Below, piece after piece: positions 7,891 through 14,265 of a DNA stretch of 64,000 nt. Both the position numbers and the translations under genes were made by a program. The stretch comes from Bacteroidota bacterium. Its GTDB lineage: Bacteria; Bacteroidota; Bacteroidia; CAILMK01; JACPUW01. Where the stretch lies: NCBI GenBank assembly GCA_016192035.1, contig JACPUW010000007.1, positions 1-64,000 on the forward strand, given 5' to 3'. Numbering within the stretch: the first letter of the stretch is position 1; each line of letters starts with the position of its first letter. Under the pieces are notes generated by a model. That model saw nothing but the letters and a program-made list of their open reading frames with translations, was not told the DNA's origin and did not search any database.

Positions 7891-8138
7891 TGCCCGCACC
7901 GCCCGTGCGGCCAAGGAGTGATGATCGGCATGTATCAGGTAGAATGCGCGTTAATATACAGAATATGAATACAATATGATTAGCTGGACTGCCAAATGCG
8001 CTTGGCCACAAATCTTTGCGGCCAGCCAAGGTTCCTTTAAGGCATTGATAAATAGCGCAATAAAAATTTCTGAAAATAAATTTGGTAGTCTCGTTTTTTT
8101 TTTTTGCTTTGTGCCATCAACCTTTAATAATTCACAAT

Positions 8139-8681
8139 ATGAGAAAGTTTTTGGTTTCATGGGCAATTGTTTTTTTGTCGTCATGTGCAGACTTTAATCA
8201 TCAACTTGAAGAAGAAGAATTAACCATTTCGATGGCACCTGATACCGGTGGAGATGATTGTGCAGCGTCTGAATTAAATGATGAACATGTCCGTCTAGGA
8301 GGCAGTTCTATTTCCCTAGACGATGCACACTGGGTTGAGATTAATGTCTTGGTTGGAAATCCACAAGGAGAGCAATATATTGATGATTATACGGACTTAA
8401 GTGTTTTAGCTTTAAATGAGGGGTATCTCATTAGTGAATTTACATTACATTTCAACGCTCTAATAGCGGGGTTATCAGTTTGTAGTGTTTTGAAGAATGG
8501 GTCGGACACAGATACTGCCGTTTCAAATGCCAATTTTAGTGATCTATTGGCGCTAATTACTTTTTATGAGGGGGAATCCTTGACACCGGTTTATTCCGAC
8601 TTAATCGCAAAATTGAAATCGGACTTAATTTCGCACAATGGTGATACAAAAGCTGAGCTGGAAACTTTTCTAACAAACTAG
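8139..8681 (+). CDS. Small lipoprotein of unknown function
   Basis: This 180-residue protein has a signal peptide with lipobox (MRKFLVSWAIVFLSSC), so the mature protein starts at Cys16 and is probably anchored in the outer membrane or periplasm. The mature part is acidic (LEEEELTISMAPDTGGDDC). I do not recognise its family. The ATG at 8139 is chosen because it starts the signal peptide; a run of ten T and a weak -7 box (TTGCTTTG) lie upstream. The gene is visibly AT-richer than the flanking core genes and is followed directly by a membrane metalloprotease-like gene, which suggests a joint, possibly acquired unit. Confidence 0.72.
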   Translation: MRKFLVSWAIVFLSSCADFNHQLEEEELTISMAPDTGGDDCAASELNDEHVRLGGSSISLDDAHWVEINVLVGNPQGEQYIDDYTDLSVLALNEGYLISEFTLHFNALIAGLSVCSVLKNGSDTDTAVSNANFSDLLALITFYEGESLTPVYSDLIAKLKSDLISHNGDTKAELETFLTN

Positions 8682-8702
8682 TTGAAAGGAATATATCAAA
8701 TT

Positions 8703-9263
8703 ATGTTGTACGTTCTGATAATATGTATCGGAACGATAATTCATGAAATGGGACACTTTACTGTTGCCCATTTCATTTATGCTAACCCAAAGCTACACTA
8801 CTCAAGCTGTGACTGGCATCCGACAGAGGACCAAGTTGGTGGAGTACATGAAATCGTTTTTCATATGGGTGGAATACTATTGCCAACAGTTCTTTCCACA
8901 ATTGCTACCGTTTTGTTGTTGGTAAAAAAGACTTTCAATCCAACTCAATTTCATCTATTGGTAATTGCTGGCACTCTATCATTTCGAAGTTTTTTCATAA
9001 TAACGTTGTTCATTATTAATTCCTTGGGATTAAGCCAACACAATTCATACGATGAAGCTAAACTCAATATTTTGCTAGAACTACCTAATGGCTTTATTGA
9101 AGTGTTATCGGCAATATACAGTATAATGATACTCTTTGCTTTGCTGTTTTTGTTGCATAAAAACGGTCATAATCTGTTAAGATATTTATCTAGAATGGCA
9201 GCAGGAATATTGATTGGGTTTTTTCTTTGGTTTAAAATTCTTGGCCCAGTAATCCTGCCTTAA
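8703..9263 (+). CDS. Membrane protein with HExxH motif (M50-like)
   Basis: This 186-residue protein is almost entirely hydrophobic, with about five or six membrane segments. The first helix contains HEMGH (about residues 14-18), the zinc-binding signature of intramembrane M50-type metalloproteases. The second canonical motif of site-2 proteases (an LDG or NPDG segment) is not evident, so catalytic activity is unproven. A TTG at 8682 directly after the lipoprotein stop is an alternative start, giving 193 residues. AT-rich like its partner lipoprotein gene upstream; the two probably form an operon. The substrate is unknown. Confidence 0.7.
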   Translation: MLYVLIICIGTIIHEMGHFTVAHFIYANPKLHYSSCDWHPTEDQVGGVHEIVFHMGGILLPTVLSTIATVLLLVKKTFNPTQFHLLVIAGTLSFRSFFIITLFIINSLGLSQHNSYDEAKLNILLELPNGFIEVLSAIYSIMILFALLFLLHKNGHNLLRYLSRMAAGILIGFFLWFKILGPVILP

Positions 9264-9319
9264 TTCCCTATACTTCTTCCCTGATAAAAGTGGAAGTATC
9301 GCCACTTAGTATGCTGGCC

Positions 9320-9375
9320 CAGCCACCGCCGCAACCCATTGTTAATCTGCTGCAAACAACCCCGAAAGGGACTTT
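9320..9375. repeat. Degenerate interspersed repeat copy B
   Basis: CCACCGCCGCAACCC (9323-9337) and CCCCGAAAGGG (9360-9370) match the blocks of copies A and C in the same order as in C. It lies just outside the left end of the integrative element. The rest of 9264-9428 shows nothing I can name. Confidence 0.5.
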
Positions 9376-9428: not shown

Positions 9429-9449
9429 AGGGGACGGAATAGGGGACGG
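9429..9449. repeat. Left 21-bp direct repeat (putative attL or integrase arm site)
   Basis: Two GGGGACGG octamers separated by AATA, preceded by A. The identical 21 bp recurs at 13991-14011, just upstream of the integrase gene, and the flanks of the two copies differ. This is what is expected of a core-site duplication flanking an integrated element, although the internal octamer repeat could also be arm-type binding sites for the integrase. Confidence 0.65.
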
Positions 9450-9478
9450 AATGGGAATGAAAAGTGCTTCGTTATCGG

Positions 9479-9718
9479 TCAAAGGTCTGACCCGAACGGC
9501 TCGTTTTCGCGGTAGTCCACCTGCTCCACCTTGGGCAGGGCATAGGGCAGCAACTTCACGATAATTTCCAGCCTGTCCCTTGGCTCCAGCCCCGCCAAGT
9601 ACCCACCCAAATTTTCCAGCTCATTGTACAGGGCATCCTTCAGGGCAACCCTTAGTTCCTTGGTTACCCTGTTGGGCGTTCCTATTTGCCTTCCTCCTGT
9701 TTTAGTCCTTTGTGCCAT
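9479..9718 (-). CDS. Small GRxxGTPN-motif protein (terminase-small-subunit-like)
   Basis: This 79-residue protein opens with a basic GGRQIGTPNRVTKELR segment, which is seen in small proteins of Bacteroidota mobile elements and resembles the N-terminal DNA-binding part of some small terminase or DUF5681 proteins. The rest (LEPRDRLEIIVKLLPYALPKV) is helical. The ATG at 9718 lies inside the end of the preceding small gene, a 37-bp overlap in another frame. Function is not established; DNA binding is inferred from the basic motif. It is the last gene before the left direct repeat. Confidence 0.62.
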   Translation of the reverse strand: MAQRTKTGGRQIGTPNRVTKELRVALKDALYNELENLGGYLAGLEPRDRLEIIVKLLPYALPKVEQVDYRENEPFGSDL

Positions 9719-9855
9719 AGTTCTGCCGTTTTCTTTATCCTTTCACGCCTGGGCAAGTGCCCCAGCATATTGTAGTAATACATCACGCTGCCAACCGCTG
9801 GTTCGCCCAGTGGGTTCGCTTTTTTTAGTTCCGCTATACTTTCACTCAGGTTCAT
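9682..9855 (-). CDS. Small protein of unknown function (57 aa)
   Basis: An open frame of 57 codons starts at ATG 9855-9853 (MNLSESIAELKKANPLGEP) and stops with TAG at 9684-9682. The product is charged and helical at both ends, with a central VMYYYNMLGHLPRRERIKK segment. It lies on the same strand as its neighbours, between the tandem repeat array and the 79-residue gene, whose start it overlaps by 37 bp. I do not recognise a family. Support comes from strand, position and plausible amino-acid composition only. Confidence 0.42.
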   Translation of the reverse strand: MNLSESIAELKKANPLGEPAVGSVMYYYNMLGHLPRRERIKKTAELWHKGLKQEEGK

Positions 9856-9962
9856 TGCCTTGCGTTTTTATTCCTTATACCATGGAGTGCGTAAATCTAC
9901 TATTGTCTTTTTTAGATGTTGTCGCGTCCCCATCGTACGGCTCGTACTACTCGTACAGGGTG

Positions 9963-10030
9963 CGAACGGTACGAATGGTACGAATGGTACGAATGGTACG
10001 AATGGTACGAATGGTACGAATGGTACGAAT
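9963..10030. repeat. 9-bp tandem repeat (seven units plus a partial unit)
   Basis: The unit CGAATGGTA is repeated head to tail: a first variant unit (CGAACGGTA) at 9963-9971, six perfect units to 10025, then CGAAT. Further CGTAC-containing variants lie just upstream at about 9936-9958. The array sits directly downstream of the RepA-like ATPase stop codon, between it and the small genes. It could be an iteron-type replication origin for the element, or a simple variable repeat. The FVP-repeat frame it creates on the minus strand is not treated as a gene. Confidence 0.9.
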
Positions 10031-10042
10031 TGGCGTTTTTCT

Positions 10043-11113
10043 TTAGACATTTTCGGTTTCCTTTTTAAGCCATTTCCGTATTGCTCCCTCCGATACCCCA
10101 AATTGTTTTGCAATCTGAATGTTCGATAAGCCTTGTTTTTTCAAGTCCAATGCTTCCCTAGTCCTGCCCTCTTGGTCTTTGTCGGTCAACTGCTTCAGGT
10201 GCTCACGCTCTATGCCGTGGTCAACAAATTCAAACGCAAGGAAATTGACATGCTTATCCAGCCTGCAAACAATTACGTTCTCGGTGTCGTAAATTATTGC
10301 CGTATTGCGGGCTTTAATTTGCTTGATGTACCTTGTATTGTTGCCCGCAGTACTCTGCCCAATAGCGAAACAGCTATCAATGAAATTGAATATCATTTTA
10401 CTGCCCTGCATATCGTTCTGTGAAATGGGGCGGCTTAAATCACGTTTCGGGGTGTGTGCCAGTGCCAATATCGAAAGGCCATATTTACTTTTAAGTGCTT
10501 TCAATTGATGTATCAAGGGCAGGGCATTTTTTGACTGTTCCATTTCTGTTTTTAGGTAGGTAATGTTGTCAATGATTAAGACCTTGGCTCTTGTTGCCAT
10601 TATGCATTTCTCAATACATCGGATAAGGTGTTCTTCAGGGTCGCATCCATTTGGCAAGGCTGCATCTGTGTTTATCGTCCCTCGCCTGAAATTATCATCA
10701 AAACTATAATGATGCTCAAATGTCTTTAGGGCTTCATTCTTTACCGAATACCTTGCTTCAAACTGCTTGGGGTTAAGTTCAAAGTCAAAGTATAATACGG
10801 GCTGCCGTTTGGCTTCCAACTTGAAACCCGGTATTGGTTGACCCTTGCTAATGCTATCCGCAATCTGGACTGACAAAATGGACTTTCCCAAGTTGCTGTC
10901 CGAAAACAAAACGCACAGTTCGCCTTCGTGCCAAAATTCGCTAAAAAGCATTTCGGGGATAGGGCTCGTTTTTGCGAGTTCCAGCCATTCGTTGCCAGTC
11001 TTCACACTGAGAAACTCTAGGGGTTGTCCCGCTATTTCTCGTTTTTGTTGTGGTATTGCATCATAACCTTTAACCATGACAGCAAGATGCGGCGGCAATT
11101 CCCTCCTCATCAT
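10043..11113 (-). CDS. RepA-like AAA/RecA-fold ATPase with C-terminal HTH
   Basis: This 356-residue protein belongs to the AAA_25/RepA-like group of RecA-fold ATPases, many of which act as replicative helicases of plasmids and mobile elements. The Walker A region is SDSNLGKS (Lys77-Ser78), a variant common in the family. Walker B is AKVLIIDN (Asp182). A C-terminal helix-turn-helix (about residues 325-352: KQGLSNIQIAKQFGVSEG) would bind DNA. Two ATG codons open the gene, and the first overlaps the stop of the upstream HTH gene (ATGATG). The 9-bp repeats lie immediately downstream and may be its target, which is inference. Confidence 0.85.
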   Translation of the reverse strand: MMRRELPPHLAVMVKGYDAIPQQKREIAGQPLEFLSVKTGNEWLELAKTSPIPEMLFSEFWHEGELCVLFSDSNLGKSILSVQIADSISKGQPIPGFKLEAKRQPVLYFDFELNPKQFEARYSVKNEALKTFEHHYSFDDNFRRGTINTDAALPNGCDPEEHLIRCIEKCIMATRAKVLIIDNITYLKTEMEQSKNALPLIHQLKALKSKYGLSILALAHTPKRDLSRPISQNDMQGSKMIFNFIDSCFAIGQSTAGNNTRYIKQIKARNTAIIYDTENVIVCRLDKHVNFLAFEFVDHGIEREHLKQLTDKDQEGRTREALDLKKQGLSNIQIAKQFGVSEGAIRKWLKKETENV

Positions 11114-11445
11114 AGTCCCATATCTTTATACATCCTTGCCGGCACAAGTTCTGGGTCGGTAGTGTAGAAGCCTGCCAAGCACCCGGATATGGGGCAGTGC
11201 GCCTTGCCTACCTTTTGTATCATGCCCCTGTCTTCCCAGTAGGCCACATAGCGGCACAAATTGGCGCGTTCTATGCCTGTTTGCCTTGATACCCACAGCA
11301 TGGTACTAGGCATTATGCCAAAGGCCGCAAATACCCTTTTCATTTGTGTGGCGTACGGGTTAGCTTTGCCCCCAGTTGCGCACCGCGTGGCTAAATCTGA
11401 ACATGGGGCGTGGGTGGTTCCCGCCCCTATTTTTTTTTCCTTCAT
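11110..11445 (-). CDS. Small winged-helix-like protein of the element
   Basis: This 111-residue protein has a central segment (MKRVFAAFGIMPSTMLWVSRQTGIERANLCRYVAYWEDRG, here described at about residues 36-75) that reads as a helix-turn-helix or winged-helix fold with a recognition helix around RANLCRYV. Small proteins of this type commonly sit between excisionase and RepA-like genes in Bacteroidota elements. It overlaps both neighbours by four bases (ATGA), so it is translated as part of the element's operon. The precise role is unknown. It may control replication or excision. Confidence 0.62.
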   Translation of the reverse strand: MKEKKIGAGTTHAPCSDLATRCATGGKANPYATQMKRVFAAFGIMPSTMLWVSRQTGIERANLCRYVAYWEDRGMIQKVGKAHCPISGCLAGFYTTDPELVPARMYKDMGL

Positions 11446-11738
11446 GGCCTTTTGTATTTAAGGTTTTTCACTTGCCCAAGTGCCTTGTGGAGTTCAGCGG
11501 TCTTAAACCTAATGCGCCCACCTATGCGAAACTTTTGCAGGGTGCCCTCGTTGCTCCATTTGTCTATGGTCACAAGGCTAACCCCCAGTAGCTTGGCAGC
11601 TTCGTCCCGGGTCATGTACCTAGGCTCCGCAGGTTCGGCTTCGTTCGGCCAGTAGGCTTCAAGTTCTTGCCTTACTGCCGTGGTGAGTAACTGTTTTAAT
11701 TCGTCAACCGTTACGGGTTGAATTAGCAATGCGTTCAT
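11442..11738 (-). CDS. Excisionase-family HTH protein
   Basis: This 98-residue protein carries a MerR/excisionase-type DNA-binding domain at about residues 40-88 (YMTRDEAAKLLGVSLVTIDKW then EGTLQKFRIGGRIRFK). Proteins with this HTH_17 domain act as recombination directionality factors or regulators in integrative elements. An N-terminal helix (TVDELKQLLTTAVRQELEAY) probably dimerises. It is expected to promote excision together with the integrase encoded at 12685-13950. Its stop overlaps the start of the next gene by ATGA. Confidence 0.82.
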   Translation of the reverse strand: MNALLIQPVTVDELKQLLTTAVRQELEAYWPNEAEPAEPRYMTRDEAAKLLGVSLVTIDKWSNEGTLQKFRIGGRIRFKTAELHKALGQVKNLKYKRP

Positions 11739-11815
11739 GTGCTTCTATCGTTATTGAAGCAACGAAATAAAATACTAGTTTATGGGTATTTTTCCCTAAG
11801 AATTCCGTGGGAAAT

Positions 11816-12682
11816 TTATTTTTTTAATCTTTCCGTAATTAGCTCAATTTCAAGTTTTTCAGCGCTTCTAGGTTTGAGCATTTTATCGCGAATATTTTTC
11901 AATCCTTTCCCCAGTCCGCTTACATCACCTATTTTACAAGGTATTTCCATCAAGGCTTTGTGCACTTTTTTTAATAGCACAGCTTCTGGTTTTCTGGCAC
12001 CGTCCTTTCTAGTTAAGTCAACCCCAATTAAGTCAACCCCAAGCCATTCGCATTTTTCCAATGCTATCAATACTCTGAAGCAATCCTTTGGCTTTTTGGC
12101 ATCCCTAAGCTCAGCCAAAACGTTGTCCAATTTCTTTCTCCCTTCATCGTTCAAGAACTCATTAAAGGGAATGTTATTGTTGACTTGTGGCCTGCCCCCC
12201 TCCAGTGTTTCAATCTTTTTCCGCGCCTTCTTGCTTTGTTTAAGCAATTCCCGCGTTTTGGCAATAAGTCGTGCATCGCTAAGTGCCCTGTTTGCAATCT
12301 CCAAATCATTGTACGACACTCGCCCCTTGGGTGTTTTCGCTTCAAAATGCTGCATCCCTACATAATCGGGGCCTATACTGGCCAGCTCCCCGTTGATTAT
12401 TTCAATAACGTCCTGTTTGTCCGTTTTGACCAGTGTATCAGTGAGTTCTTTTATCAGCCTGTTCCTTTGGCTTGTTATGCCGCCTACCAATTCTTGCAGT
12501 GCAAATTCACACCCATTAAAAAACCGCTCAACCGAGTAGCCGCGTTCATCTTTCGCTTCTTTAAACACATCCACAAAATACCCCGCCAAATCGCTTCGGT
12601 TGGATGGTATGAGTATCCCTTTCAATAGTATCTCTAGGTACTCACCGGGTAGCCCACTTGCCGATAATGCGCGCTTTTCCAT
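11816..12682 (-). CDS. Hypothetical protein of the element (288 aa)
   Basis: I do not recognise the family of this 288-residue, mostly helical, lysine- and glutamate-rich protein. It has no signal peptide or membrane segment and a basic stretch LKQSKKARKKIETLEGGRP at about residues 148-166. A near-repeat LGVDLIGVDL comes from a 15-bp direct duplication in the DNA (about 12015-12045). It starts two bases after the integrase stop codon, so the two are cotranscribed. Position beside the integrase suggests a role specific to the element. Nothing shows what that role is. Confidence 0.7.
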   Translation of the reverse strand: MEKRALSASGLPGEYLEILLKGILIPSNRSDLAGYFVDVFKEAKDERGYSVERFFNGCEFALQELVGGITSQRNRLIKELTDTLVKTDKQDVIEIINGELASIGPDYVGMQHFEAKTPKGRVSYNDLEIANRALSDARLIAKTRELLKQSKKARKKIETLEGGRPQVNNNIPFNEFLNDEGRKKLDNVLAELRDAKKPKDCFRVLIALEKCEWLGVDLIGVDLTRKDGARKPEAVLLKKVHKALMEIPCKIGDVSGLGKGLKNIRDKMLKPRSAEKLEIELITERLKK

Positions 12683-12684
12683 AG

Positions 12685-13950
12685 CTATCCTACCACTTTA
12701 AGTTTAGGCCTGAAATACTCGTGCTGCTGCATTATCTCGGCGTGGTCTTCGCTGCCCAGCTTCAGGTAAGATTGAAACACCTTTTCCGAGCTGTGCCCTG
12801 TTATTTTCATAATGGACTGCACGGGCACCTTGGCCTTGTATGCCAGCGTGGCGAACGTGCGGCGTGCCGTGTGCGCGGTCACCAGTTGGCACTTGGGGCG
12901 CAGGGTTTCCCTGCTTGCCCCTGCCTGTGTACGGGTTGTGGCCACTTCATGGGTTATGCCCGCCATTTGTGCCAGCTCCTTTACCCAGCGGTTAAACTCT
13001 TGGTTGCTCGGCACCCGTGGCAGTTTGCCCCCGTGCTTCTTGAGTATTTCCACCGTTTGGTCGTGCAGGGGCACATACACCACTTCCCCGGTCTTTTGGG
13101 TGCGTATCCGTATCACATCGCCCCAACCGGCCTTTATTATCTTGTCAGGGGTCAGTTGCTTCAGGTCGCCAAACCTCAGCCCCGTACGGCAGCCCACCAT
13201 GAAAACGTCCCGCACCCCGTCCAGTTTGCCGTCCCCGCTCAGGTCCAGGCCATAAATCTTGGCCAGCTCATCCTCGGTCAGGTAAACAGAATCCACTTCC
13301 TCCTTCATGACCTTAAACCCCTTGCCCTTGTACGCCAAGTTGTCGTGCAGCCCCTTTTGCCGTGCCACTTCCATAAATACCTTGATGATCTTTACCCTAG
13401 TGCCCACAGTGTTGAGTGCCATTTCCTTTACTTCTTGGCAGTACTTCACAAAGTCAAGGTAAAAGTCCAGGCCTATGTCGGCAAAGCCCAGCGGCCTGCC
13501 CTTGCGCCTATGCACTTCGTATTCCCTTAGGGTGCCAATTGTCGTTACGTAGCTAGCACGGGTGCCCGGTTTCTTGGTTGCCATCTTTTGGTACCCGTCC
13601 GCAAACTCCAGTAGCGTTTGTGCGGCCTTGGCCTGCTTGTGGGTAAACTCCCTGTCCAGGTACAACCGTACCAGCCCAAGGTCAAATGGCAATTTGTTCA
13701 GCGTGGCGTTTGATACCAGTTTGTCAAGGGCATCAACATAGCGTTCCAGTTGGTTGTTCACGGCCTTGTCGCTATTGGTCACCCCATCGGCCTTTAGGTT
13801 TACCCGTTGCTTGGCTTTGTCCCATTTGGACGGGTTGACCTTTTCGCCCGTGGAGTACTTCAGCCGCTTGTTGCCGTCACGTACAATCAGGAAAATGATG
13901 GTATCCGCGTTTGCCCCCGGCTCCTTCAGTACAAAAGAATGTGTTGCCAT
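12685..13950 (-). CDS. Tyrosine recombinase (integrase)
   Basis: This 421-residue site-specific integrase has an N-terminal arm DNA-binding domain (about residues 1-55), a SAM-like core-binding domain (about 105-205) and a C-terminal catalytic domain. The catalytic residues can be placed at Arg255 (GCRTGLRF), Lys286 (RTQKTGEV), His360 and Arg363 (HTARRTFAT), His386 (TGHSS) and the nucleophile Tyr395 (SYLKL). All six are present, so it should be active. It lies 40 bp inside the right direct repeat, the usual place for the integrase of an integrative element. It is the first gene of the element's minus-strand operon. Confidence 0.95.
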   Translation of the reverse strand: MATHSFVLKEPGANADTIIFLIVRDGNKRLKYSTGEKVNPSKWDKAKQRVNLKADGVTNSDKAVNNQLERYVDALDKLVSNATLNKLPFDLGLVRLYLDREFTHKQAKAAQTLLEFADGYQKMATKKPGTRASYVTTIGTLREYEVHRRKGRPLGFADIGLDFYLDFVKYCQEVKEMALNTVGTRVKIIKVFMEVARQKGLHDNLAYKGKGFKVMKEEVDSVYLTEDELAKIYGLDLSGDGKLDGVRDVFMVGCRTGLRFGDLKQLTPDKIIKAGWGDVIRIRTQKTGEVVYVPLHDQTVEILKKHGGKLPRVPSNQEFNRWVKELAQMAGITHEVATTRTQAGASRETLRPKCQLVTAHTARRTFATLAYKAKVPVQSIMKITGHSSEKVFQSYLKLGSEDHAEIMQQHEYFRPKLKVVG

Positions 13951-13990
13951 AAAAAAGTGGTTAAATCTGAATCAGACACAAACATAATAC

Positions 13991-14011
13991 AGGGGACGGA
14001 ATAGGGGACGG
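13991..14011. repeat. Right 21-bp direct repeat (putative attR or integrase arm site)
   Basis: Identical to 9429-9449 over 21 bp, with two GGGGACGG octamers spaced by AATA. It lies 40 bp upstream of the integrase start codon. The sequence diverges from the left copy immediately outside the repeat on both sides. Confidence 0.65.
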
Positions 14012-14128: not shown

Positions 14129-14265
14129 TCCGAAAGGGGTGGCATGATTATAGCCGCCGCCGCAACCCGTGGTGAATGGTACGCCCCGTTCCAAAACCCC
14201 GAAAGTGGTGATATATGATGCACACAACCAACCCATTGGGCTTCGATTGCCCCGCGCCCTAAGCC
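14129..14265. repeat. Degenerate interspersed repeat copy C, in the gene-free stretch 14012-14281
   Basis: It contains TCCGAAAGGGGTGGCAT (14129-14145), CCGCCGCCGCAACCCGTGG (about 14154-14172), GTTCCAAAACCCCGAAAGTGG (about 14188-14208, same blocks as copy A) and a GCCCTAAGCCC block. It is the fullest of the three copies. The minus-strand frame running through it from the porin end is not considered a gene. Between 14012 and 14128 I see only a T-rich stretch. Confidence 0.55.

Follow-up and report, generated by a model that had tools for sequence, protein, structure and literature searches.

The stretch of DNA analysed here, hereafter the window, covers the first 64 kb of its contig in the 2.98-Mb genome of a Bacteroidota bacterium, and positions 9429-14011 of it hold a putative integrative element of 4,583 bp bounded by perfect 21-bp direct repeats. 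The repeat, AGGGGACGGAATAGGGGACGG, forms the core of the left attachment site (attL) at 9429-9449, where a partial 12-bp unit follows to 9452, and of the right attachment site (attR) at 13991-14011. A search of the whole genome that allowed up to 3 mismatches recovered only the two element ends, and 100 shuffles of the window yielded no such repeat. The 21-bp identical ends described in an earlier note on this DNA are therefore exact repeats that are unique in the genome.

All genes of the element lie on the minus strand according to the list of open reading frames (ORFs). The rightmost encodes a 421-aa tyrosine integrase (12685-13950), which matches Phage_integrase (1.8e-11), SAM_5, Arm_5 and phrog_1 (8e-30) and possesses the catalytic core residues R, H-x-x-R, H and Y. 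It is followed by a 288-aa orphan (11816-12682) in the slot that TnpC takes in the mobilizable transposon Tn4555; no Pfam, PHROG or NCBIfam family and none of 395 genomes of the class gave a match, and its single weak homologue occupies the same slot in one related locus (L089; L-numbers denote the loci or contigs carrying relatives or homologues that were compared here). Next come a 98-aa excisionase or recombination directionality factor (11442-11738; HTH_17, 3.5e-11; TIGR01764, 3.8e-11), a 111-aa protein resembling a winged helix-turn-helix (HTH) protein (11110-11445; weak MarR_2 match), whose homologues (up to 56%) sit in the same slot in other loci such as L083, L092 and L100, and a RecA-fold ATPase (10043-11113; Pfam AAA_25, 3e-17) with a C-terminal HTH at residues ~311-355, a putative initiator or helicase. 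These three genes overlap by a few bases each in an operon-like manner. Beyond the ATPase gene lie an iteron array (9933-10028), a possibly coding 57-aa ORF (9682-9855) with no family match and no homologue in any of the compared loci, and, overlapped at its start by that ORF, the gene for a 79-aa DUF5681-like protein (9479-9718), a putative packaging protein of the small-terminase type. The integrase, unknown protein, excisionase, HTH protein, ATPase and 79-aa protein listed in the earlier note are thus all present, with families matched for the integrase, excisionase and ATPase, and neither the full ORF list nor family searches turned up a virion structural gene, as that note had also stated.

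The predicted model of the ATPase (pLDDT, the predicted local distance difference test, 77) matches KaiC, DnaB and T7 gp4, which are hexameric RecA-fold motors. The protein is 40.7% identical to the Tn4555 ATPase over 92% and up to 74% identical to other relatives, and it retains the motifs that are invariant across the family. A scan of GTDB contigs for relatives, a check named in the earlier note, returned 476 relatives, the best 80 of which were examined in detail. The order integrase, protein X (the 288-aa orphan here), excisionase, an occasional winged-HTH gene, ATPase, iterons and DUF6371 is kept in ~100 Bacteroidota loci. DUF6371 proteins carry a Zn ribbon and are presumably primases. 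Judged by sequence, the replicon is a Bacteroidota-wide module common to the element and to Tn4555.

What the earlier note had called iteron-like repeats proved to be 11 units in exact 9-bp register, namely three TCGTAC (9933, 9942 and 9951), one degenerate unit (9960) and seven GTACGA (9969-10023). They form two inverted blocks and a putative replication origin, the place and period of which are kept in relatives. There, 9-bp-spaced repeats occur in both orientations just downstream of the ATPase stop codon, overlapping it in some loci; 5-7 bases of each unit are fixed and the remainder are nearly free, and at least 4 copies are present in 74 of 90 relatives. The class of the recognition helix in the HTH matches the class of the repeat almost one to one. 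The SEGxxRKW helix goes with GTACGA (14 loci), GxVNKY with GTGAAC (19 loci), MKVxR with GTTACA (29 loci) and KSTVxR with GGGACA (3 loci), and rare helices go with rare repeat motifs; the exception is L115, in which an SEG helix accompanies a different motif. Across 74 relatives, similarity of the helix predicted the repeat (r 0.69; partial r 0.66 allowing for the ATPase core), the core itself contributed a partial r of 0.016, and the observed correlation was reached in 0 of 2,000 permutations.

In the tree of the ATPase core, the element joins three GTGAAC/GxVNKY elements with 99% support in the Shimodaira-Hasegawa-like approximate likelihood ratio test, therefore its helix and its repeat changed together. 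Independent switches of helix and iteron on strongly supported branches amount to only 2-3 pairs per class, all of which agree. Two loci of one metagenome-assembled genome (MAG), L127 and L135, have ATPase genes that are near-identical up to the HTH, beyond which both the HTH and the repeats differ. In a later IMG/VR set, one of the three common helices occurred in eight loci (L190-L196 and L199), and all eight had the expected repeat, seven of them at five or more copies and L194 at three. The distant ATPases of four large viral contigs (L202-L205, 100-295 kb) have neither a C-terminal HTH nor an iteron array. The correspondence and the L127/L135 exchange support the prediction that the ATPase and the array are an initiator-origin pair, and the HTH and array, being neighbours, could have been exchanged as one block. 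Divergent helices of one class keep their motif while the spacer bases vary, indicating selection on the match between helix and repeat.

Pfam and NCBIfam gave no match for the 79-aa protein, PHROG gave only very weak ones to families of unknown function, and the protein's terminase link comes from the gene neighbourhood of its homologues, which lie by the gene for the large terminase subunit (TerL). The position just before TerL is the usual place of small terminases (TerS). Among the 30-odd homologues found by phmmer, those adjacent to TerL in phages include L173 (1.9e-13), L177 (8e-7) and MW202462 (3e-5). In MW202462 and L173 the homologue is immediately upstream of TerL and overlaps the TerL gene start, and the TerL of L173 was confirmed by phrog_2 (8e-33); in L177-L189 it lies directly before TerL or is separated from it by one or two small genes, with TerL matching phrog_38 at ~1e-100 in the five tested. 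Homologues also occupy the slot after DUF6371 in ~16 relatives (e.g. L197, 7e-16; L190, 2e-12). The gene that often follows them, in ~12 elements (e.g. L098:10386-10988), encodes a ~195-aa protein with a CPxTxKRCRxxY motif and no Pfam, PHROG or phage match. A TerS function of the DUF5681-type proteins is likely from this gene context. The earlier description of the 79-aa protein as terminase-small-like thus stands as far as TerL neighbourhood is concerned and fails at the level of TerS models, none of which it matches.

Of 107 loci, 28 contain a TerS-like or DUF5681-like gene, which lies 0.3-3.8 kb downstream of the ATPase gene (elsewhere on the circle in L196), and in sister elements the slot of the 79-aa gene is taken by recognised small terminases. 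L099, from a Flavobacteriales MAG, has VRR-NUC and TerS genes (phrog_606, 9.6e-32) and ends before TerL; since the same block precedes TerL in Flavobacterium phage FPSV-S27 (virE, VRR-NUC, DNA packaging protein, TerL), this is the anatomy expected of a satellite that borrows TerL. In L196 the homologue of the 79-aa protein is encoded directly after a VRR-NUC-like nuclease, and both genes also occur in L104. The TerS of L190 has 181 phage matches, and the proteins of L193 and L199 may be gp3-like and P27-like TerS, respectively, a reading of their sequences that finds little database support. L099 and the IMG/VR contigs L190, L197, L196, L193, L175 and L199, all undescribed relatives, resemble the element in their iteron replicon and TerS-like or DUF5681-like gene, and are mostly 5.5-8 kb with no relaxase detected in any of them; unlike it, all keep a primase-like gene, which is DUF6371 except in L196 and L199, where a different ORF of 306-383 aa fills that slot. 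Exact end repeats of 96-127 bp were found in five of the ten short IMG/VR contigs with the module (L175, L193, L196, L197 and L199), and in a sixth, L190, the first 20 bases recur 99 bases from its end. Assembled circles among the relatives measure ~6.0-9.6 kb. The circular L199 (9,724 bp) encodes an HK97 prohead protease (TIGR01543), which together with its putative P27-like TerS suggests a step toward capsid-forming satellites.

We consider it reasonably probable that the element is a minimal integrative phage satellite with its own initiator and iterons. It combines intact attachment repeats, an integrase that keeps the catalytic residues, an excisionase and an initiator-iteron replicon, and since its nearest kin carry a replication initiator and a packaging gene without shell genes, it probably spreads in the particles of a helper phage. 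On induction, recombination between the 21-bp repeats by integrase and excisionase would free a 4,562-bp circle. The ATPase would bind the 9-bp iterons via its C-terminal HTH, load as a hexameric helicase and start replication, with a primase supplied by the host or helper since the primase-like gene of most relatives is missing from the element. The 79-aa protein would then direct the TerL of the helper phage to the element DNA, and the particles of the helper would take up this DNA, probably in concatemeric form.

Several observations weigh against a satellite. The 79-aa protein was matched by no terminase family model, and its predicted structure is a low-confidence (pLDDT 70) two-helix hairpin without a clear DNA-binding domain. 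Homologues in the Bacteroides phages BF1-TP2 and BKO1-TP3 lie near the integrase, in BF1-TP2 ~20 kb from TerL. L190 encodes a recognised TerS in addition to its DUF5681-type protein, which is why the TerS function is put no higher than likely; the DUF5681-type proteins may have another role in packaging. The DUF6371 gene of most relatives is absent, and neither phrog_2 nor phrog_38 revealed a prophage TerL in the genome; any helper would have to be a phage that infects the cell, or else something missed by the models used. The circular IMG/VR contigs, moreover, do not prove encapsidation. Foldseek with the weak 79-aa model found nothing significant, and solved structures searched with the 79-aa profile and the TerS candidates gave no useful match. 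A weak phrog_2 match in the genome was rejected as TerL, the gene reading as PhoH-like from its sequence. The Bacteroides phage homologues had first suggested no relation between the 79-aa protein and terminases, a point on which the earlier note had made the satellite argument depend; this view was dropped once the TerL-adjacent homologues were found, and the link survives through the TerL neighbours in MW202462, L173 and L177-L189.

The element could instead be an integrative mobilizable element (IME) with only an origin of transfer (oriT), resembling a stripped-down Tn4555 or NBU, that excises, replicates and leaves the cell through a helper element's relaxase and conjugation machinery, the 79-aa protein being an accessory DNA-binding protein. 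In favour of this, the element shares a homologous module of integrase, excisionase and ATPase with Tn4555, a transposon that conjugative elements mobilise (PMC5704250), and oriT-only IMEs have been described (PMC11389934). The profile made from the Tn4555 relaxase MobA, however, matched nothing in the window or in ~100 relatives and recovered Tn4555-type loci only, in agreement with the earlier statement that a relaxase is lacking, and what recurs in the relatives instead is phage small-terminase genes. A small-terminase family is among the 25 commonest Pfam matches of the relatives' 139 accessory ORFs, and no relaxase family is. Family searches of the genome detected no type IV secretion system coupling protein of the TraG/VirD4 family (TraG-D_C). 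They also detected no PF03432 relaxase, which is a weak test here since this insensitive model misses L201, bearing a Tn4555-type mobA. In that 88.5-kb viral contig, a TerL-like ORF is found near the mobA-bearing Tn4555-like element, which is possibly inserted in a prophage. The earlier note had rated a satellite and a mobilisable element as equally plausible. The satellite half gains support from the TerL-adjacent homologues, the TerS of sister elements and the circular relatives. Conjugative transfer is the weaker option because the Tn4555-type relaxase profile matches nothing outside Tn4555-type loci; it still stands, since an oriT alone could suffice, and we regard it as unlikely.

Also unlikely is a defective remnant, that is, a former satellite or IME that has lost its primase and transfer genes and at most excises. 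The missing DUF6371 gene, a tail consisting of the 57-aa and 79-aa ORFs only, and an array with seven near-identical units, pointing to recent expansion, would fit such decay. The main ORFs are nevertheless all open, the end repeats are perfect, the invariant ATPase motifs are retained, the array still fits its helix, and the gene for the 79-aa protein is conserved. A recognisable DUF6371 gene next to the ATPase is likewise lacking in several relatives (e.g. L065, L109 and L128). We likewise consider it unlikely that the ATPase and its iterons serve regulation or excision and not replication, a reading of the replicon step that would be compatible with any mode of transfer: excision of Tn4555 and NBU1 needs proteins besides integrase and excisionase (PMC5704250) and in many loci the ATPase and DUF6371 genes flank the array, a possible operator, but it persists in the element although no DUF6371 gene follows, and the ATPase, with its predicted DnaB/KaiC/T7 gp4 fold and usual pairing with a Zn-ribbon DUF6371 protein, has the look of a helicase-primase replicon.

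Among the closest known systems is Tn4555, a mobilizable transposon of Bacteroides and an IME. Both have the order integrase, X, excisionase, ATPase and iterons near the ATPase 3' end, where Tn4555 carries GGGACA repeats, and the element shares with Tn4555/NBU-type IMEs a tyrosine integrase and excisionase with attachment repeats and a homologous ATPase module. Tn4555 has tnpA, a DUF6371 protein, mobA and cfxA, whereas the element has none of these and has a DUF5681-type gene; it is not a Tn4555-type IME because it is without a relaxase. Phage-inducible chromosomal islands (PICIs) bear a divergent master-regulator module beside the integrase, and the element was not filed as a PICI because all of its genes are on one strand, without a divergent regulator pair. 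It resembles PICIs (PMC6092414, a paper that does not mention Bacteroidota) in its integrase, excisionase, own replicon with the origin beside the initiator, putative TerS and lack of structural genes. It differs in its smaller size, single coding strand and different replication protein, and its induction by a phage is putative; the initiator with an adjacent repeat origin is recognised from sequence evidence. The phage-inducible chromosomal minimalist islands (PICMIs) of Vibrionaceae (PICMI115, 6,110 bp) lie next to fis and have alpA and a primase but no terS (PMC10803314). The element is likewise very small, with a core limited to excision and replication and without capsid genes; it differs in its AAA_25-HTH initiator with iterons, its putative TerS-like gene and its lack of a primase, and instead of the PICMI core of alpA, integrase and primase next to fis, it is flanked by a 193-aa hypothetical gene and a porin gene. 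Charybdis elements (PMC12324425), of similar size, were rejected as kin since their hallmark genes and archaeal host differ, judged by description only.

The flanking porin gene was at most 35% identical or absent in the relatives compared for an empty site. Left of the element, GC is ~0.37 at window positions 8000-9300, compared with 0.50-0.58 in nearby host genes, and this stretch is possibly another acquired segment; the gene at 8682-9263 has a HEMGH zinc-protease-like motif. A 26-bp repeat (85%) at 9321-9346 and 14152-14177 flanks the element outside the attachment repeats and is perhaps a host intergenic repeat. Direct-repeat ends were sought in L065 and L099 and none was resolved. A gene of ~460 aa, mnmE/trmE in L098 (L098:2319-3716), lies ~240 bp before tnpA-int and has a counterpart in the same position in L081, L084, L086, L091, L095, L100, L106, L110 and L113, so this tnpA-int subgroup probably integrates at the mnmE end, the target of SGI1. 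Accessory ORFs near the relatives' modules match restriction, DISARM-like, Zorya-like and phospholipase D anti-phage genes, which are possibly cargo.

The novelty lies mainly at the level of the family, that is, in satellite-like elements of Bacteroidota whose swappable replicon also occurs in IMEs; no family of Bacteroidota phage satellites was found in the literature searched, which did not take in some key satellite papers. We give about even chances to a broader proposal, in which very small phage satellites form an undescribed lineage that spans the Bacteroidota and has this replicon in common with Tn4555-type elements, the mode of transfer is set by a small terminase or a relaxase in the slot after the replicon, compatibility changes by exchange of the ATPase helix together with the matching 9-bp iterons, and the present element is among the smallest members. 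Bacteroidota dominate guts and many waters, and if the proposal is true, many small circular 'viral' contigs would be satellites, and Tn4555, the carrier of the cfxA beta-lactamase, would share its replicon with them. At 4.6 kb, the element would lower the minimal size of a satellite from the 6.1 kb of PICMI115 (PMC10803314). The helix-iteron correspondence bears on the replication of IMEs, which a 2017 review described as never studied (PMC5704250), and amounts to a code, open to direct testing, that would tell which elements can coexist.

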